A DNA stretch of 64,000 nucleotides from the NCBI RefSeq assembly GCF_001937445.1, contig NZ_MSKS01000013.1, positions 62,001 to 126,000 of the forward strand, given 5' to 3'. Positions 41,104-49,002 of this stretch are shown here, piece by piece. This stretch comes from Actinomyces oris (lineage in GTDB: Bacteria; Actinomycetota; Actinomycetes; Actinomycetales; Actinomycetaceae). The translations under genes and the position numbers were made by a program. Position 1 is the first letter of the stretch; every line of letters starts with the position of its first letter. The notes under the pieces were generated by a model, which was given only the letters and a program-made list of their open reading frames with translations, did no database searches and was not told the origin of the DNA.

Positions 41104-41790
41104 TCAGGCGACCTGTTCCCGGTAGCGGAGGGCCACCAGCTCGGCGAGCGCCGGGTGGTCGCCGATGGGCGCGGCTACGACGTCGGCGCCCGTGGAGTGC
41201 AGGGCCCGGTGAAAACGTCCCTCCGCCAGCAGGTAGGTGGCCACACCTACCCGCCCGGCGCCTCGGGCCCGGGCCGTGCTCACCGCGTCACGGACACTGG
41301 GGCGCGCAGCCGACAGGTAGGCGGGCGTCACCTCGCGCCCCAGACGCGCCTCGAGCAGGCGAGTGATGGCCTCAACCTCCTCCAGTGCCACCGCCTGACG
41401 CGACCCGGCCGCGCCCAGAACAATATGGTCGAGCCCTGCAAGCCCGCCCAGGGGCGCGGAGGCCTCGTGAAGCCGCTGCGCCACGGCCTCCACCAGGTGC
41501 GCCTCGACCCCCAGGTGCCCGGTGACCGTCCCCGACCCGTGTCGTTCCACTGCGGCCGGTACGTCATGGACGACGTGATAGCCGCGGGCCAGGAAGAAGG
41601 GCAGCACCACCGGATCCACCAGCCCCTCCAGCGCCGTGGCCGGGTCCGGGGGCTGGAGCTCGACGTAACCGGTGCGCACCTCCACCTCGGGCAGGATCGT
41701 GCCGACGCGCTCAGCGGTGCGCGACAGGACTGAGGACGGCCCGGGCCGTCGCGAGCCGTGGGCCAGCAGCACCAGGGGACGAGTGCTCAT
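41104..41790 (-). CDS. Sirohydrochlorin chelatase-like protein (CbiX/SirB family)
   Basis: A 228-residue chelatase-fold protein with two similar halves. The metal-binding His is in LLAHGSRRPG, and PFFLARGYHVVHDVP follows, as in ferrochelatases of siroheme synthesis. It is last in the sulfur operon, where it would insert iron into sirohydrochlorin for the siroheme of sulfite reductase. The start overlaps the stop of the TauE/SafE gene by 4 bp. A cobalt chelatase role is less likely because no cobalamin genes are near. Confidence 0.85.
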   Translation of the reverse strand: MSTRPLVLLAHGSRRPGPSSVLSRTAERVGTILPEVEVRTGYVELQPPDPATALEGLVDPVVLPFFLARGYHVVHDVPAAVERHGSGTVTGHLGVEAHLVEAVAQRLHEASAPLGGLAGLDHIVLGAAGSRQAVALEEVEAITRLLEARLGREVTPAYLSAARPSVRDAVSTARARGAGRVGVATYLLAEGRFHRALHSTGADVVAAPIGDHPALAELVALRYREQVA

Positions 41791-42830
41791 ACCGGCTCCA
41801 CCACCAGAACCGCGTGCGCGTGAGGACGAGCCGGCTCGACCGGCCTCGACCCGAGCGGACCACTCGAAGTGAGAGTCTCGTCCGGCACAGCAGCCTCAGG
41901 TGCGTGGCCGTACCGAGGATCGGTGCGGACCTCCTCAAGCACCTGCTCGGTCTCCTCCCGAATGTCTGTGGCGGTGGCGCGTGCCTTGCGGACCGCCAGG
42001 GTCAGGAAGGCCGCCCAGATCACCCCGAGCGCGCCGTACAACACGACTCCGGTTCGGGCCGAGGCCTCGGCCCAGGACAGGAGCACCCGCAGGTTCGTGG
42101 CCAGGATCAGCCCGCCGACGGCGGTGCCCAGCACCGCTCCAGGCAGACGGGAGACCAGCCAGGCGGCGATCGGTGCGGCCACCAGCCCGCCGGCCAGCAG
42201 GGTCAGGACAATGCCGAGGCTGATGCCCGCGGTGCCCAGTCCGGTGAGGAAGCCGGCCGAGGCCGCCACCGTCACCAGGAACTCCGAGGCCCCCACCGAG
42301 CCGACCACGGTGCGCGGTGCCGTACGACCACCCGTGAGCAGCGTCGTCGTCACCACCGGTCCCCAGCCGCCACCGCCGGTGGCGTCAACGAAACCGCCCA
42401 CCACTCCCAGGGGGACCAGGAGCCGCCTGCCGTGTGGGGAGCGCCGGCTACCGGATCCCTTAGGCGGGCGCAGGGAGAAGCGCCCCAGGACATAGGCCCC
42501 CAGCAGGATCAGCAGGCTCGCCGTCACCGGGGTCGCCGCGCGGGTCGACAGGTGCGACAGGACCGTGGCGCCGCCGAAGGCCCCCACCGCGCCGGGCAGC
42601 CCCAGCCGGACCACCAGGCGAGGATCGGTGTTGCCCAGCCTCCAGTGGGAGGCCCCCGAGGCCAGGGTCGTGCCGATCTCAGCCAGGTGCACCGAGGCCG
42701 AGGCGAGCGCCGGGCTCAGCCCGGCCAGAAGCAGCAGGGAGGAGGAGGTCATGCCGTACCCCATCCCGAGGGAGCCGTCGACCAGCTGGGCGGCCAGGCC
42801 GACGAGGGCGAGAAGAACAAGTTTGCGCAT
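41787..42830 (-). CDS. TauE/SafE-family membrane transporter
   Basis: An integral membrane protein of 347 residues with about eight helices and a polar C-terminal tail of 90 residues. The two-fold repeated pattern QLVDGSLGMGYGMTSSSLLL and VVGGFVDATGGGGWGPVVTT is diagnostic of the TauE/SafE (sulfite exporter) family. Its place in the sulfate reduction operon suggests sulfate uptake or sulfite export; direction cannot be told. The tail with Pro/Glu-rich residues is unusual in length. Confidence 0.88.
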   Translation of the reverse strand: MRKLVLLALVGLAAQLVDGSLGMGYGMTSSSLLLLAGLSPALASASVHLAEIGTTLASGASHWRLGNTDPRLVVRLGLPGAVGAFGGATVLSHLSTRAATPVTASLLILLGAYVLGRFSLRPPKGSGSRRSPHGRRLLVPLGVVGGFVDATGGGGWGPVVTTTLLTGGRTAPRTVVGSVGASEFLVTVAASAGFLTGLGTAGISLGIVLTLLAGGLVAAPIAAWLVSRLPGAVLGTAVGGLILATNLRVLLSWAEASARTGVVLYGALGVIWAAFLTLAVRKARATATDIREETEQVLEEVRTDPRYGHAPEAAVPDETLTSSGPLGSRPVEPARPHAHAVLVVEPV

Positions 42831-42872: not shown

Positions 42873-43682
42873 TCACGCGGCGGGGCTCGCCGGCCGGGCC
42901 TCCTCGACGACTCGGTCAGCCCAGTACGGGCTCAGGGTGACGACGTCGCCGATGACGATGACCGCGGGGGCGGTCACGCCGCAGCGGGCGGCGACGTCGG
43001 CCAGACATCGCAGCTCGGTGGTGGTCACGCGCTGGTCGGGGTGGTAGCCGCGCTCGATGATCGCCGCCGGAGTGGCCGGATCGCTGCCGGCCTCCAGCAG
43101 GGAGGCGACCGAGTCCCGCAGCCGGGAGACCCCCATGAGCAGGATGAGGGTGTGGTCGCGGCGCTGGGGGAGCACCCCCAGATCCGCATGAGCCGTGATG
43201 ACCGAGAAGCCACGCGACAGCCCCCGGTGGGTCACGGGGATCCCCGCCGCCGCGGGCACGGCGATGGCGCTGGTGATCCCCGGGACGACCTCGACGGCGA
43301 CACCGGCCCGGCGGCAGGCGGCCGCCTCCTCCCCGCCGCGCCCGAGCACGTAGGGGTCACCGCCCTTGAGACGGACCACCCCCTTGCCGCGGTGGGCCAG
43401 GTCGACCAGGAGCGCGTCGATCTGCTCCTGGCTCATGACGTGCCGGCCGCGCCGCTTGGAGGCGTCGATGACCTCGGTTGTGGGGTCAAGGTCCTCCAGG
43501 AGGTCCCGGGGCGCCAGTGCGTCGACGACGACCACGTCCGCCTGGCCCAACAGCTCCAGGCCGCGGGCGGTGATGAGGCCGCTGCTGCCCGGGCCGCCGC
43601 CCACCAGTGCCACCCAGCCGCCCGCGGAACCCGCAGAGCCAGCGGAGCCGTCGGGTACATGGGGAGAGACGTCGTGGGTCAT
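42873..43682 (-). CDS. cobA: Uroporphyrinogen-III C-methyltransferase (SUMT)
   Basis: SAM-dependent methyltransferase that turns uroporphyrinogen III into precorrin-2, the first step to siroheme; 269 residues. The marks are VALVGGGPGSSGLIT, VVRLKGGDPYVLGRGGEE and VVPGITSAIAVPAAAGIPVT. It is the stand-alone CobA type, not fused to a CysG-type dehydrogenase. I see no precorrin-2 dehydrogenase in the window, so that step must be encoded elsewhere. A repeated Gly/Ser/Ala head precedes the domain. It starts 3 bp after cysN. Confidence 0.9.
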   Translation of the reverse strand: MTHDVSPHVPDGSAGSAGSAGGWVALVGGGPGSSGLITARGLELLGQADVVVVDALAPRDLLEDLDPTTEVIDASKRRGRHVMSQEQIDALLVDLAHRGKGVVRLKGGDPYVLGRGGEEAAACRRAGVAVEVVPGITSAIAVPAAAGIPVTHRGLSRGFSVITAHADLGVLPQRRDHTLILLMGVSRLRDSVASLLEAGSDPATPAAIIERGYHPDQRVTTTELRCLADVAARCGVTAPAVIVIGDVVTLSPYWADRVVEEARPASPAA

Positions 43683-43685
43683 GCC

Positions 43686-45044
43686 TCAGCCCCTGCCTGA
43701 GGAGGCGGCCGCAGCCGGTTCTCCGCGCCCTGCGCCTGCCAGCTGCACCATGCCCGCCCCGAGCGTGCCGCCCTCGTGGGCGTCGATGAGGAGGAAGGCG
43801 CCGTCGGACCGGGAGACCGAGTAGTCGGCCAGGGGCACCGGTGAGGCCAGACGCAGCCGAACCAGGCCGATGTCGTTGAGCTCCAGGGCATCAGCCGGCA
43901 CCGTGGTCAGGTCGTCCAGGTCGAGGCGCCCCTCAATGGCGCGCACGATCGCCTGGACCGTCTGGGCGCCGTGCTTGAGCAGCACTCGCGTCCGGGGGCG
44001 CAGGGGCTCCTCGCTCAGCCAGGACACGCGGGCGTCGACCTCGGTGAGCACCTGGGGCGCGTCGCCCGCCGCGGCCAGGGTGTCACCGCGGGCCACGTCG
44101 ATATCGTCGGTGAGGCGAACCGTCACCGACTGGCCCTCAACGGCCTCCTCCAGGCTGCGCTCGCCCAGGTCGATGCCGGCCACGCGTGAGTGCCTGCCCG
44201 AGGGCAGCACCACCACGGGGTCACCGACGCGTACCGTGCCCGAGGCGATCCGCCCGGCGTAGCCCCGGTAGTCGCGCAGCTCGGGCGCCGGCGCCGCCCC
44301 CTGGGGGCGGATGACCAGCTGGACCGGCAGGCGGAAGGCGCCCTCGTCGCGGGCGGTGGGCAGGGACTCCAGAAGCCCCAGCAGGGTCGGCCCCTCGTAG
44401 AAGGGCGTGCTGGTCGAGGCCTGGACGATGTTGTCCCCCAGGAGCGCGGAGGTCGGCAGGACATGGATCTCGGCCACGCCCAGCTCGGCGGCCACGGCGC
44501 GGATATCGGTCTCGATGGCTGCGTAGACCTCGGCGGAGAAGTTCACCAGGTCGATCTTGTTGACCGCGACGATAACGTGCGGGACGCGCAGGAGGGCGGC
44601 GACCGCCAGGTGGCGGCGCGTCTGCTCCAGGACCCCGTTGCGGGCGTCCACCAGCAGCACGACGACGTCGGCCGTGGAGCAGCCGGTGACCGTGTTGCGG
44701 GTGTACTGCACGTGCCCGGGGCAGTCCGCCAGGATGAAGGAGCGTTGCGGGGTGGCGAAGTAGCGGTAGGCGACGTCGATCGTGATGCCCTGCTCGCGCT
44801 CGGCCCGCAGCCCGTCGGTCAGCAGCGCGAGGTCGGCACTGGTCAGGCCCCGATCCAGGCTGACCCGCTCGACGGCGGCCAGCTGGTCGCGCAGCACGGA
44901 CTTGGAGTCGAACAGCAGGCGGCCCACGAGCGTGGACTTGCCGTCGTCGACGCTGCCGGCTGTGGCCAGCCGCAGCAGTGAGCCGGTGGCGGCGGCGCGA
45001 GCCTCGGCCTCGGCGGGGATGTCGGTGAGGGTGGGGGTGCTCAT
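43686..45044 (-). CDS. cysN: Sulfate adenylyltransferase subunit 1 (GTPase)
   Basis: GTP-hydrolysing subunit of ATP sulfurylase, 452 residues. The G motifs are AGSVDDGKSTL (G1), DCPGHVQYTRN (G3) and NKIDLV (G4). Domains 2 and 3 have the elongation-factor fold. It works with CysD to turn sulfate and ATP into APS. It has no fused APS kinase (CysC) domain, consistent with direct APS reduction by the neighbouring CysH. Its start overlaps the cysD stop by one base (TGATG). Confidence 0.93.
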   Translation of the reverse strand: MSTPTLTDIPAEAEARAAATGSLLRLATAGSVDDGKSTLVGRLLFDSKSVLRDQLAAVERVSLDRGLTSADLALLTDGLRAEREQGITIDVAYRYFATPQRSFILADCPGHVQYTRNTVTGCSTADVVVLLVDARNGVLEQTRRHLAVAALLRVPHVIVAVNKIDLVNFSAEVYAAIETDIRAVAAELGVAEIHVLPTSALLGDNIVQASTSTPFYEGPTLLGLLESLPTARDEGAFRLPVQLVIRPQGAAPAPELRDYRGYAGRIASGTVRVGDPVVVLPSGRHSRVAGIDLGERSLEEAVEGQSVTVRLTDDIDVARGDTLAAAGDAPQVLTEVDARVSWLSEEPLRPRTRVLLKHGAQTVQAIVRAIEGRLDLDDLTTVPADALELNDIGLVRLRLASPVPLADYSVSRSDGAFLLIDAHEGGTLGAGMVQLAGAGRGEPAAAASSGRG

Positions 45045-46048
45045 CAGAAGTAGCCCTCCTTCTTGCGGTCCTCCATGGCCGCCTCGCTCAGGCGGTCATC
45101 GGCGCGGGTGGCTCCCCGCTCGGTCAGGGTGGAGGCGGCGACCTCCAGGACGATGTCGTGGTTGGTGGCGGCCTCGGACTCGACGGCGCCCGTGCAGGAC
45201 ATGTCGCCCACGGTGCGGTAGCGCACGGTGCGGGTGACGACCTGCTCGCCGTCGCGCAACCGGTTGACGCCTCCGGCCGCCAGCCACATCCCGTCACGCA
45301 GGAACACCTCACGCTCGTGGGCGTAGTAGAGGCCGGGCAGGGCGATGTCCTCGCGCTCGATGTAGCGCCACACGTCCAGCTCGGTCCAGTTGCTCAACGG
45401 GAAGACCCGCACGTGCTCACCGGGGCGGTGGCGGGGGTTGAGCAGGTTCCACAGCTCGGGGCGCTGGTTGCGCGGGTCCCACTGGCCGAACTCGTCGCGC
45501 AGGGAGACGATGCGCTCCTTGGCCCGGGCCTTCTCCTCGTCGCGGCGCCCGCCGCCGAAGACGCCGTCGAAGCCACCCTCCTCGATGGCGTCGAGGAGCG
45601 GGATCGTCTGGAGCGGGTTGCGGGTGCCGTCGGTGCGCTCGCGCAGACGGCCGTCGTCGATGTAGTCCTGGACGCGGGCCACCACGAGCCGCAGACCGAG
45701 CTCCTCGACCGTCCGGTCACGGTAGGCCAGCACCTCGGGGAAGTTGTGGCCGGTGTCCACGTGCAGGACGGGGAAGGGGATCGGAGCGGGCCAGAAGGCC
45801 TTGCGCGCCAGGTGCAGCATGACCACGGAGTCCTTGCCCCCGGAGAACAGCAGCACGGGGCGGCGGCACTCTGCGGCGATCTCCCGGATGACGAGGATGG
45901 CCTCGGCCTCCAGGACGTCAAGGATGTCCAGGGCCTCAGAGGTGGCGGGGGCCCGGGAGAGGTCGGCCAGACCGGCCGGTTCGAGCTCCGGCGCATGCGC
46001 GGGGGAGGGGACGGGGGCCGGAGGGGTGTGGGTCAGGGTGATGCTCAT
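45044..46048 (-). CDS. cysD: Sulfate adenylyltransferase subunit 2
   Basis: Catalytic PP-loop subunit of ATP sulfurylase, 334 residues. The PP-loop is LLFSGGKDSVVMLHLA, and FGGGRRDEEKARAKER and FPLSNWTELDVWRYI are typical. ATG 46048 gives MSITLTHTPP with a Pro-rich head of about 45 residues, longer than in E. coli. Start and cysH stop overlap (ATGA). The C-terminal DDRLSEAAMEDRKKEGYF is strongly conserved in CysD. Confidence 0.94.
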   Translation of the reverse strand: MSITLTHTPPAPVPSPAHAPELEPAGLADLSRAPATSEALDILDVLEAEAILVIREIAAECRRPVLLFSGGKDSVVMLHLARKAFWPAPIPFPVLHVDTGHNFPEVLAYRDRTVEELGLRLVVARVQDYIDDGRLRERTDGTRNPLQTIPLLDAIEEGGFDGVFGGGRRDEEKARAKERIVSLRDEFGQWDPRNQRPELWNLLNPRHRPGEHVRVFPLSNWTELDVWRYIEREDIALPGLYYAHEREVFLRDGMWLAAGGVNRLRDGEQVVTRTVRYRTVGDMSCTGAVESEAATNHDIVLEVAASTLTERGATRADDRLSEAAMEDRKKEGYF

Positions 46049-46836
46049 AGGTGGATTCCGCATTCTGTCTTGGTGAATCCGGCCCAGCGGCCGGAACGGG
46101 GGTCGTCTCCGGGCTTGACTCGCGCCGTGCACGGGGCACAGCCGATCGAGGGGTAGCCGTCGTACAGGAGGGGGTTGATGAGCACGCCGTGCTGGTCGGC
46201 GTAGCCGGTCAGCTCCTCCATGCTCCAGGCGGCCAGGGGATTGATCTTGACGATCTCGTGGGTGGCGTCCCAGCCGATCAGCGGCGTGTGGGTGCGGGTG
46301 GGGGCGTCCTCACGGCGCACCCCGGTGGCCCAGGCCTCGTAGCCGCTCAGGGCCCTCGCCAGCGGCTCGACCTTGCGCAGGCGGCAGCAGGCGGCCGGGT
46401 CCCGCGACCACAGATCCGGCCCGTAGCGCTCGTCCTGCTCGGCCACGCTCAGCTCGGGCATCACGTCGACGACGGTGACGTCCATGGTGGCGGCCACCGC
46501 GTCGCGGGTGCCCACGGTCTCGGCGAAGTGGTACCCGGTGTCCAGGAAGAGGACATCGACTCCGGGCAGGGCCCGGGAGACCACGTGCGGCAGAACGGCG
46601 TCGGCCATGGAGCAGGCCACGGCCAGCGTGCTGGGGAAGTTCTGGGCCGCCCACTGGGCGACGTCGAGGGCCTCGGCATCGTCACCGAGCTCGCGTGCAC
46701 CGGCCTCGGCCAGGGCGCGCAGCTCCTCCGTGGACCGCAGCGGGGCCGAGCCTGCGCCGCGCGACCTCGAGGCGGCAGGAGCACGGTGCGCCACATTCAG
46801 GGACGCCTGGGCGCTGTCAGTGGTTGCGGCGCTCAC
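46045..46836 (-). CDS. cysH: Adenylylsulfate (APS) reductase
   Basis: Thioredoxin-dependent reductase of the assimilatory pathway, 263 residues. The cysteine pairs CCRLRK and GCAPC are those of iron-sulfur-bound APS reductases, and the catalytic cysteine is in the C-terminal TECGIHL. This marks the enzyme as using APS rather than PAPS. GTG 46836 overlaps the sir stop (GTGA), so it is coupled to sir. The head of about 35 residues is Ala/Ser-rich. Confidence 0.93.
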   Translation of the reverse strand: MSAATTDSAQASLNVAHRAPAASRSRGAGSAPLRSTEELRALAEAGARELGDDAEALDVAQWAAQNFPSTLAVACSMADAVLPHVVSRALPGVDVLFLDTGYHFAETVGTRDAVAATMDVTVVDVMPELSVAEQDERYGPDLWSRDPAACCRLRKVEPLARALSGYEAWATGVRREDAPTRTHTPLIGWDATHEIVKINPLAAWSMEELTGYADQHGVLINPLLYDGYPSIGCAPCTARVKPGDDPRSGRWAGFTKTECGIHL

Positions 46837-48536
46837 TGCAGGGCCTCCTCATCGGCTCGGTGCGCCCACTGGGCGAAGGTCTCCTCAGGGAGGCGCTGGT
46901 CCAGGTAGCGGCGCACCAAACGCTCGACGTAGTCGACCAGGCCGGAGGCGGGAACCTTCAGACCCCTCACCGTGCGGCCCAGGCCGGCCTCGGCGCGGCC
47001 GTCGGCGGCCAGGCCACCGCCCAGGTGCACCTGGAAGCCGGGCATCTGCTCGCCGTCGACCGTGATGATCTGGCCCTTGAGGCCGATGTCCGCGATCTGG
47101 ATGCGGGCGCAGGAGTTCGGGCAGCCGTTGACGGTCAAGGTGATGCGCCGATCCAGGTCGGTGTCGGCCAGGCGCGCGTCGAGCTCGGCCGACACGCGCG
47201 CCGCCAGCTTCTTGGTCTCCACGATCGCGAACTTGCAGAACTCCAGCCCGGTGCAGGCCAGGGTCGAGCGGGTGAAGGCGCCCGGGTCGGGATCGAGCCC
47301 CAGCTCGCGCAGACCCGCGACGGCGTCGTCGACCTTCTCGGCAGGTACGTCCAGGAGCAGCAGGTTCTGCAGCGGGGTGGTGCGCACCCGGTCCGAGCCG
47401 ACCCGCTCGGCCAGGTCTGCCAGGCCCAGCAGGACGTCCCCGCTCAACCGGCCGACGGGCGGCTTGGCCCCCACCCAGAAGCGGCCGTCCTTCTGCTCGT
47501 GGACGCCGATGTGGTCGGAGTCCCCGCTCGGCTCCTCAGGGGCCGGGCCATCGGGCAGGGCGCGTCCCAGGTAGTCGTCCTGGAGGACTCGCCGGAACCT
47601 TTCCGGCCCCCACTCGGCCATGAGGAACTTCAGCCGGGCCTTGTTGCGCAGGCGGCGGTAGCCGTAGTCGCGGAAGATGCGGATGACGCCGTACCAGACG
47701 TCCAGGGCGTCCTCAGGGGTGACGAAGGCCCCCAGCCGCTGGCCCAGACGCGGGGCGGTGGACAGGGCTCCGGCCACCCACAGGTCGTAGCCGGGACCGA
47801 GCTCGGGGTGGTTGACGCCGACGAAGGAGACATCGTTGATCTCGTGGAGGATGTCGAGGCTGGGGGAGCCGGTGATGGCCGTCTTGAACTTGCGGGGCAG
47901 ATTGGCCAGCTCGGGGTCACCCAGGTAGGTGTCCTTGATGGCACGGGCCAGCGGAGTCGGATCGATGACCTCGTCCTTGGCGACGCCGGCCACCGGGGAG
48001 ACCAGGAACCCCCGGGGCGTGTCCCCGCAGCCCTCGACCGTGGTCAGCCCCACCGACTCCAGGCGCCGCCACAGCTCTGGGACATTGTCGATCTCCACCC
48101 AGTGCAGCTGGATGTTCTGCCGGTCGGTGATGTCGGCGGTGCCGCGAGCGAAGTCGTTGGAGACCGAGCCGAGCACCCGCAGCTGCTGGCGGCTCAGGCT
48201 CCTACCGTCCAGGCGCACCCGCTGCATGAAGTAGCGGTCGGACAGCTCGGAGACGTCCAGCTGGGCGGTGCGGCCGCCGTCGATCCCCTGCTTGCGCTGG
48301 GTGTACAGGCCCCACCAGCGGAAACGGCCGTTGAGATCGTCGGGTGCGATGCTCTCGTAGCCGCCGGGACCGTAGATGCGCATGATCCGGTCGCGCACCG
48401 CCAGCGGGTCCCCGTCCTGCTTGAAGGCCTCGTTGTCATTGAGCGGCTTGCGCCCGTCGAGGGCCCACTGGCCGTTGGAGCGGGCCTTGCGCGGTGGGCG
48501 CAGGGTGCGGGCGGGTGGCGTGACGGTGGTGGTCAT
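46833..48536 (-). CDS. sir: Sulfite reductase (ferredoxin), siroheme and iron-sulfur enzyme
   Basis: Reduces sulfite to sulfide with six electrons; 567 residues, cytosolic. The ligand motif of the coupled iron-sulfur/siroheme centre is seen as TLACTGLEFCKFA and NGCPNSCARIQ. The substrate-binding region TDRQNIQLHWV and the tandem ferredoxin-like repeats are present. ATG 48536 (MTTTVTPP) has the strong site GGAGGAG 3 nt upstream. The frame is open for 38 more codons upstream, but that part is leader. The mRNA leader is about 275 nt and carries a short peptide gene with two Cys codons plus a hairpin over the ribosome binding site. Confidence 0.94.
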   Translation of the reverse strand: MTTTVTPPARTLRPPRKARSNGQWALDGRKPLNDNEAFKQDGDPLAVRDRIMRIYGPGGYESIAPDDLNGRFRWWGLYTQRKQGIDGGRTAQLDVSELSDRYFMQRVRLDGRSLSRQQLRVLGSVSNDFARGTADITDRQNIQLHWVEIDNVPELWRRLESVGLTTVEGCGDTPRGFLVSPVAGVAKDEVIDPTPLARAIKDTYLGDPELANLPRKFKTAITGSPSLDILHEINDVSFVGVNHPELGPGYDLWVAGALSTAPRLGQRLGAFVTPEDALDVWYGVIRIFRDYGYRRLRNKARLKFLMAEWGPERFRRVLQDDYLGRALPDGPAPEEPSGDSDHIGVHEQKDGRFWVGAKPPVGRLSGDVLLGLADLAERVGSDRVRTTPLQNLLLLDVPAEKVDDAVAGLRELGLDPDPGAFTRSTLACTGLEFCKFAIVETKKLAARVSAELDARLADTDLDRRITLTVNGCPNSCARIQIADIGLKGQIITVDGEQMPGFQVHLGGGLAADGRAEAGLGRTVRGLKVPASGLVDYVERLVRRYLDQRLPEETFAQWAHRADEEALQ

Positions 48537-48537
48537 T

Positions 48538-48578
48538 GCTCCTCCATGACGGTGGCGTGTCATTGGCGTATGAGGAGC
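48538..48578 (-). promoter_or_regulatory. Hairpin that can mask the sir ribosome binding site
   Basis: On the minus strand GCTCCTC (48578-48572) is exactly complementary to GAGGAGC (48544-48538), which is the sir ribosome binding site. Within it ATGAC and GTCAT pair as a second stem. If formed, it would hide the site. Confidence 0.5.
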
Positions 48579-48723
48579 GTCCGGGGTCGGCCTGGTGCGC
48601 TGCTGCGTGCAGAGCCTGCAGTGCCGTTCAGTTGGCGTCAGCCGTCTCAACGGGGCCTTCCGGACGCTTCATTGCGCCGGATACCTCGTTGCGGGGTGAA
48701 GTCCCCGTGGTGTCAGGCGCTGG

Positions 48724-48810
48724 TCAGGCCCGACAACACATGACCGCATGGGCACGCAGAAGATCAGCGGGATAGGTACCGCTGAAGAGTGCTGCGTGAG
48801 GGAAGGTCAT
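48724..48810 (-). CDS. Putative 28-residue leader peptide with tandem cysteines before sir
   Basis: On the minus strand an ATG at 48810 opens 28 codons ending Met-Cys-Cys-Arg-Ala before TGA. Both cysteines are TGT, rare in this genome, at codons 25 and 26. A TAATGT box ends 7 nt before the ATG, so the message would start at or next to the ATG and be leaderless. Leaderless cysteine-rich upstream peptides that tune sulfur genes by cysteine supply have been described in mycobacteria, including before a sulfite reductase gene. Here it stands 187 nt before the sir start and is followed by GGTCA/TGACC pairing around the Cys codons. Expression is inferred, not shown. Confidence 0.55.
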   Translation of the reverse strand: MTFPHAALFSGTYPADLLRAHAVMCCRA

Positions 48811-48817
48811 GGCCGAA

Positions 48818-48847
48818 ACATTAACCATGCTTTTACCCTGGCGACAA
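48818..48847 (-). promoter_or_regulatory. Promoter of the sulfur assimilation operon
   Basis: On the minus strand TTGTCG (48847-48842), an 18-nt spacer and TAATGT (48823-48818). Transcription would start at about 48810-48811, which is the A of the leader peptide ATG. It is the only promoter-like pair I see in the roughly 460-bp gap before sir. Confidence 0.55.
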
Positions 48848-49002
48848 GCAGGAATGATCTGTGCTTCGAGTCACGGTGGGGTTGTTGAGGGTGGCTTTAT
48901 CCCGTCAGGACGCGGAAAAAGATCGCACTGCCGCGCACTGCACCGGTGGTGGCGTGCGGCAGCAGATAGACGGGATATGGGACCTCGGACCTAGGTCTGC
49001 GC

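Follow-up and report, generated by a model that had tools for sequence, protein, structure and literature searches.

The leader frame upstream of the sir operon

We analyzed a 64,000-nucleotide (nt) stretch of the Actinomyces oris contig NZ_MSKS01000013.1 (assembly GCF_001937445.1, positions 62,001 to 126,000; hereafter the window), in which a short upstream open reading frame (uORF) on the minus strand precedes a cysteine-supply operon, sir-cysH-cysD-cysN-cobA. An earlier sequence-only reading of this DNA had described a promoter, a 28-codon frame ending in two Cys codons, and a hairpin at the sir ribosome-binding site, and had proposed that scarce Cys-tRNA frees translation of the operon. 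The leader and operon features are as follows.

48842..48847, minus strand: -35-like element TTGTCG, assigned by sequence and not visible in all relatives
48818..48823, minus strand: -10 box TAATGT, with a 7-nt gap to the uORF ATG; TANNNT spacing recurs in relatives
48724..48810, minus strand: 28-codon cysteine leader peptide frame, MTFPHAALFSGTYPADLLRAHAVMCCRA, probably leaderless; frame and MCC[QR]A tail recur in relatives
48733..48738, minus strand: tandem Cys codons TGT TGT
46833..48536, minus strand: sir, NirA/Sir-type nitrite/sulfite reductase (Pfam NIR_SIR and NIR_SIR_ferr); sulfite as substrate by operon context
46045..46836, minus strand: cysH-like, PAPS_reduct family match, named from operon order
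45044..46132, minus strand: cysD-like, PAPS_reduct family match, named from its position before cysN
43686..45044, minus strand: cysN, TIGR02034 above cut-off
42873..43682, minus strand: cobA/cysG-type uroporphyrinogen-III methyltransferase (siroheme), TIGR01469 above cut-off

By family matches and gene order, the leader lies before a cysteine-supply operon. The promoter-like boxes, the 7-nt gap, and the 28-codon MCCRA frame all lie on the minus strand as first read: TTGTCG (48847-48842) and TAATGT (48823-48818) are separated by 18 nt, and the uORF extends from the ATG at 48810 to the stop codon TGA at 48726-48724, with Met-Cys-Cys-Arg-Ala as its C-terminal end. Started at an alternative in-frame ATG, 48828, the frame would have 34 codons, but 48810 is preferred because of the position of the -10 box. 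Such a frame is rare in the window; Cys-Cys falls within the last six residues for 4 of 978 ATG or GTG starts of 15- to 45-codon frames, the leader frame itself accounts for two of the four through its two starts, and only 48810 has TANNNT 6 to 8 nt upstream. As background, TANNNT lies at that distance from 15 of the 3916 ATG or GTG triplets in the window (0.38%). A strict sigma-70 scan for the -35/-10 pair found none, and a TTG-type -35 box could not be seen in some of the leaders compared.

Conservation of the leader in Actinomyces

All 49 Actinomyces genomes of the genus set were searched for sir, which was found in 22 of 37 genomes (G000-G036) and 6 of 12 genomes (G059-G070), 28 in total. 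The window belongs to an Actinomyces of the oris/naeslundii group, its sir having 94-98% identity to that of A. oris, A. naeslundii, and A. johnsonii. Every one of the 28 sir-bearing genomes carries a uORF with the tail Met-Cys-Cys-Gln/Arg-Ala, and the tandem Cys codons are thus kept upstream of sir in relatives, as the proposal of a cysteine sensor had implied. The exact pattern ATGTGYTGYCRGGCYTGA matched once per genome in 23 of the 49 genomes, with no match for the same pattern read backwards; the other five sir-bearing genomes have a leader form one codon longer. Twenty-seven leaders were measured for spacing, folding, and alignment, and a twenty-eighth (L197), added later, keeps the frame and the tail. 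The leader sequences are related, and the counts below are not independent events.

TANNNT precedes an in-frame start in all 27 leaders, at a distance of 7 nt in 25 and 6 nt in 2 (searched at 5-9 nt), and the start codon is ATG in 25 and GTG in 2. This spacing suggests that the uORF is probably translated from a leaderless start. The frame is open in 27/27, leader lengths differ by whole codons, and the Cys pair is constant in a variable peptide body, in which the coding signal is weak (18, 11, and 23 variable columns at the three codon positions in five groups). The sequence-only reading had also stressed that both Cys codons are the rare TGT. This holds for the window, where six operon and neighboring genes use 2 TGT and 18 TGC, but not for the genus; both Cys codons are kept in 27/27 leaders and the second is always TGT, whereas the first is TGC in 4. 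Because the GU of the second codon belongs to an RNA pairing segment (segment 1 below), pairing is a plausible reason for its constancy, and the case for codon rarity behind TGT TGT is weaker.

Pairing segments between the Cys codons and sir

Six segments of the leader RNA, chosen by eye from the alignments, are spread from the Cys codons to the Shine-Dalgarno sequence (SD) of sir.

48728..48734, minus strand: segment 1, GTCGGGC, which shares bases with the second Cys codon; partner of segment 2, with pairing in 99.4% of cells
48712..48720, minus strand: segment 2, GCGCCTGAC; GCGCCTGA stands at offset +21 from the ATG of the Met-Cys-Cys tail (MCC ATG) in 27/27
48674..48681, minus strand: segment 3, TCCGGCGC; pairs with segment 2 (100% of cells) or segment 4 (98.9%)
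48659..48667, minus strand: segment 4, GCGTCCGGA; complementary to segment 3 and to segment 5
48572..48584, minus strand: segment 5, CCGGACGCTCCTC, including GCTCCTC at 48578-48572; pairs with segment 4 (through CCGGACGC) or with the SD (through GCTCCTC)
48538..48544, minus strand: segment 6, GAGGAGC, the sir SD; exact complement of GCTCCTC

The segments allow two sets of pairings, namely, 1:2, 3:4, and 5:6 (closed) or 2:3 and 4:5 (open). Counted from the MCC ATG, the Cys codons occupy +3 to +8, segment 1 +7 to +13, and segment 2 +21 to +29, with the stop codon at +15 to +17 in the main leader form. About 187 untranslated nt separate the UGA from the sir ATG, and the Cys codons are about 190 nt from the SD. 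Across the leaders, segment 1 reads GTCRGGC and segment 5 reads CCGGACGCTC in most.

Folding energies were calculated for 13 representatives of the 27 leaders; the controls address neighbor against skip pairs and slid registers, not an unbiased discovery rate. The neighboring pairs were more stable than composition shuffles: 1:2, -13.3 versus -5.9 kcal/mol; 2:3, -12.6 versus -8.0; 3:4, -14.9 versus -9.2; and 4:5, -20.5 versus -9.9. The skip pairs 1:3, 2:4, 3:5, and 4:6 fell within one standard deviation of the shuffles. Standard base pairs filled 99.1% of cells for 1:2 and 3:4 and 100% for 2:3, versus 26-45% in slid controls. Swapping partners among the representatives weakened 4:5 and 5:6 (permutation p = 0.023 and 0.025), with no clear effect on 1:2, 2:3, or 3:4 (p = 0.71, 0.076, and 0.19).

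The partner of segment 5 at the sir start differs by clade. In the oris group, GCUCCUC faces the SD; in L011, L015, L016, L019, L020, L037, and L058, GCUCAU faces AUGAGC at the start codon; and in L012-L014, CUCCAG (CUUCAG in L013) faces CUGGAG at the SD. The GCTCCTC:GAGGAGC pairing on which the earlier hairpin was built is exact in the window, but it is confined to the oris-like clade and is the weakest helix and the last step of the proposed device. The SD helix alone provides no link from the Cys codons to the sir start; segments 1-4 are the middle that had been missed.

The nucleotide conservation of this region admits another explanation, in which the conserved block serves as a binding site for a protein or as some other kind of RNA element, and the open frame would be incidental. 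The nucleotides of the block are indeed nearly invariant from TGTTGTCRGGC to GCGCCTGA, and the weak coding signal of the leader body fits such an element too. However, the frame is open behind a start box in every leader with length differences of whole codons, and Cys tails recur on other nucleotide sequences in Isoptericola and in the cysK and ATP-binding cassette (ABC) importer leaders described below. Rfam also gave only a chance-level match for the leader (E = 4.2), by which a known riboswitch or RNA family is rejected, and we consider this explanation very improbable. A plasmid search gave no match.

Folding evidence and a proposed mechanism

A ribosome at the Cys codons covers segment 1, and a ribosome at the stop codon covers segment 2. 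In transcripts ending at segment 3 with the first 16 nt covered, the probability of 2:3 pairing, P(2:3), was 1.00 in 27/27 leaders; in the same transcripts left uncovered, mean P(2:3) was 0.17 (>0.5 in 3/27) and P(1:2) was 0.82. When the 5' end was placed past segment 4 instead of past segment 3, the mean cost of opening the sir start rose from 8.1 to 10.2 kcal/mol; with segment 4 lost, the start was harder to open in 23 of the 27 leaders, equal in 3, and easier in 1. Segment 4 therefore eases opening of the sir start once segment 3 is engaged.

From these sequence comparisons and calculations, we consider it likely that the leader attenuates translation initiation of sir-cysH-cysD-cysN-cobA in response to cysteine and opens when cysteine is short. 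The transcript would start at or next to the AUG of the leaderless 28-codon leader peptide. With ample Cys-tRNA, ribosomes would reach the UGA and cover segment 2, or depart so that 1:2 forms; segment 3 would then pair with segment 4, and the free segment 5 would pair with the sir start region, at the SD in the oris-like clade and at the start codon in others, closing it. With scarce Cys-tRNA, a ribosome would wait at UGU UGU and cover segment 1, segment 2 would pair with segment 3 once the latter is made, and segment 4, left alone, would capture segment 5 and leave the sir start open. The mechanism of the sequence-only reading is thereby supported as the best available, now with its missing middle supplied.

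Several results weigh against this mechanism. In full-length equilibrium folding, only L009, L021, and L022 switch clearly at 2:3 and 4:5 together. The leader of the window switches at 2:3, but its 4:5 stays at about 0.9 in every state; averaged over the 27 leaders, the increase is small, from 0.04 to 0.21 for P(2:3) and from 0.09 to 0.19 for P(4:5). Most leaders favor 3:4 wherever the ribosome stands, mean P(3:4) being 0.88 free, 0.75 stalled, and 0.91 at the stop. The mean difference in start opening between a ribosome at the Cys codons and one at the stop is only 0.8 kcal/mol (21 leaders easier, 2 equal, and 4 harder), and an earlier calculation with the SD alone, excluding the sir codons, gave 5.1, 4.8, and 5.0 kcal/mol for the free, stalled, and stop states. 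The 5:6 helix, with its clade-dependent partners, is hardly above chance (-12.0 versus -10.4 kcal/mol for shuffles). Covariation, which speaks neither for nor against the pairings, is uninformative for segments 1-4 (500/500 shuffles equal) because these segments show almost no variation. Full-length equilibrium thus gives no support to a thermodynamic switch in all leaders, and pairing in the cell would have to be set by the order in which the segments are made, as in trp attenuation.

The equilibrium folds, which often retain 3:4 in all states, would be compatible with a simpler device of the mycobacterial type, in which the stalled ribosome itself breaks one start-hiding structure and segments 2-4 are only scaffold. 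The precedent for such a device is known (as cited in the available part of PMC9031893). Many of the invariant columns nevertheless fall in segments 2, 3, and 4, and the distance from the Cys codons to the SD exceeds the footprint of a ribosome; we regard this device as unlikely.

Alternatively, the Cys leader might act on transcription, with quick termination at the UGA leaving the leader untranslated and exposed to Rho and with the helices only shaping access of Rho. No intrinsic terminator was found in the leader of the window, the sole terminator-like site in 48450-49000 being at 48937-48924, upstream of the promoter, and the untranslated stretch between the UGA and sir would be available to Rho. 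Rho has been suggested for cys leaders by Seliverstov et al. (in the part of PMC1262725 available). This explanation fits poorly with the change in start-site opening upon loss of segment 4 and with the pairing of segment 5 to the start, for which every clade offers a possible partner of its own, though on average hardly above shuffles. We think it improbable, and attenuation of sir translation remains our preferred interpretation.

Cys leaders before sir outside Actinomyces

At all nine named sir loci fetched from Isoptericola/Krasilnikoviella, sir is preceded by a different, Cys-tailed peptide with more Cys codons; eight end in C[LQ]CCCR and one (L056) ends in CLCRCR, with TANNNT 7 nt before each ATG. 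A Luteimicrobium leader before sir ends in APCCC and has TANNNT at 8 nt. Among 50 further upstream regions from mixed families, Cys-tailed short frames numbered 19 on the forward strand versus 7 on the reverse, and many non-Actinomyces sir loci showed no Cys leader in the scan of upstream regions. When TANNNT was required as well, Cys-tailed frames were found in 6 of 48 regions outside Actinomyces.

Ten frames in the 50 regions (L102, L105, L108, L109, L115, L116, L119, L126, L127, and L130) are Cys leaders of an HVDL type. The seven of these that were scanned match NF042934/NF042936 with best E values of 1.9e-9 to about 0.07, one above the curated cut-off and six below. No NCBIfam or Pfam model, NF042936 and NF042934 included, matched the peptides tested, two from Actinomyces and one from Isoptericola (0 families, E up to 1).

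In a search of 78 sources for the relay with the model R1, nothing scored below E = 0.8 except the sir leader of the window itself, and of 200 family genomes the model hit 23, all of them Actinomyces. Eight Isoptericola-type leaders were folded, and the alternatives 2:3 and 3:4 were present. Covering segment 2 made the start site easier to open (8.7 to 7.1 kcal/mol), opposite in sign to Actinomyces, and the wiring in Isoptericola may differ from the Actinomyces relay.

Cys-tailed leaders before other Actinomyces operons

In the genome carrying the window (G000), cysK (TIGR01136 above cut-off) is found some 1.2 kb beyond the start of the window, and the gene after it is cysE-like by eye. The cysK leader (L131/L135, G000:C13 about 61.0-61.1 kb) is SD-led and ends in PMCCCRCR. 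Cys-tailed leaders precede cysK at 28 of 30 Actinomyces loci (3/30 in the reverse-strand control); each of the 28 shows an SD-like motif ahead of an in-frame start, and TANNNT is absent from all of them. A GGCGC-rich hairpin region after the cysK leader recurs in relatives by eye, and no Rfam match to it was obtained in the three loci scanned.

A second leader of this kind precedes an amino-acid ABC importer, whose ATPase is GlnQ/TcyN-like, with no curated cut-off reached among the matches listed (25 of 189 families); the importer probably takes up cystine. In G000 the leader (L195, G000:C16 about 25.8 kb) is short, SD-led, and reads VRMRMCCCCCR. Short MCCC-tailed leaders occur at 25 of 29 importer loci, G000 included (reverse-strand control, 0/29), with an SD-like motif in 23 of the 25 and TANNNT in none.

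In G062, where sir was looked for and not found, the importer instead carries an MCCRP leader, after which come segments 3, 4, and 5 as in the sir leader. In this copy (L165, G062:C14:27942-28020), segments 1 and 2 are changed. Relative to shuffles, 3:4 and 4:5 lie beyond, 1:2 is marginal (0.07), and 2:3 (0.24) and 5:6 (0.84) are not beyond; a TANNNT start was looked for at this leader and none was found. These sequences lead us to lean, somewhat cautiously, toward a ribosome-read cysteine regulon of three operons, in which sulfate reduction would be under a leaderless leader with the six-segment relay, cysK-cysE and the ABC importer under SD-led leaders, and the relay would be a movable module.

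Relation to known leader systems

The mycobacterial precedent invoked by the sequence-only reading is real. Cys-rich leaderless short open reading frames (sORFs) precede cysteine genes in mycobacteria (Shell 2015, PMC4633059, in its available part), and ribosome speed at the Cys codons of polycysteine leaderless sORFs is reported to control downstream translation (Canestrari 2020, as cited in the accessible passages of PMC9031893, PMC9094748, and PMC13236596). The Actinomyces sir leader resembles the sORFs described in these passages in its leaderless uORF, its terminal Cys codons, and its place before cysteine genes; it differs in its peptide, in having only two Cys codons, in a pairing chain over about 200 nt, and in genus. 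Unlike those sORFs, the Actinomyces cysK and ABC importer leaders are SD-led. The models NF042936 (Ms4527A Cys-rich leader) and NF042934 (cis_reg_atten) likewise describe Cys-rich leader peptides, related forms of which precede sir in other actinobacteria, and they differ from the Actinomyces and Isoptericola peptides in that neither matches those tested.

In the available part of Seliverstov 2005 (PMC1262725), candidate cys leaders are given for Mycobacterium, Propionibacterium acnes, and Bifidobacterium longum cbs. They share with the present leader a short frame, Cys codons near the stop, and a position upstream of cysteine genes. For the mycobacterial cys leaders, that text found no conserved terminator hairpins, left the mechanism undecided, and raised Rho as a possibility; Actinomyces naeslundii is in its genome list, and the present leader is not reported in that part. 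In the portion of a Streptomyces lividans leader table available (PMC8079986), a leaderless metL peptide contains Cys and no cys-operon leader was noticed. In the part of the literature covered, none was found on Actinomyces oris, sulfite reductase, and cysteine together, and for Actinomyces cysteine leader peptides only Seliverstov 2005 was on topic by title among the papers listed.

Control of cysteine genes through leader-peptide attenuation is thus of a known kind, and the Actinomyces version appears to be new; the proposed relay wiring and three-operon regulon were not found in print in that part of the literature. In erm-type translational and trp-type attenuators, ribosome position drives 1:2/3:4 versus 2:3 pairing. 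Unlike these, the Actinomyces leader would respond to an amino-acid signal with translation of a biosynthetic operon as its output, and extra segments would relay the state to the start; it also differs from a trp-type intrinsic-terminator attenuator in that the window's leader has no terminator hairpin with a U-run. If correct, this interpretation would extend leader-peptide cysteine attenuation to an oral genus, give cys leaders a concrete base-by-base circuit, and place three operons for cysteine supply under a single signal, Cys-tRNA. The Cys tail combined with TANNNT spacing offers a means of finding unannotated Cys leaders elsewhere.

Downstream of cobA, a minus-strand gene at 41787-42830 encodes a membrane protein that is TauE/SafE-like by eye, with no NCBIfam match, and is possibly a sulfur-compound permease of the sir operon.
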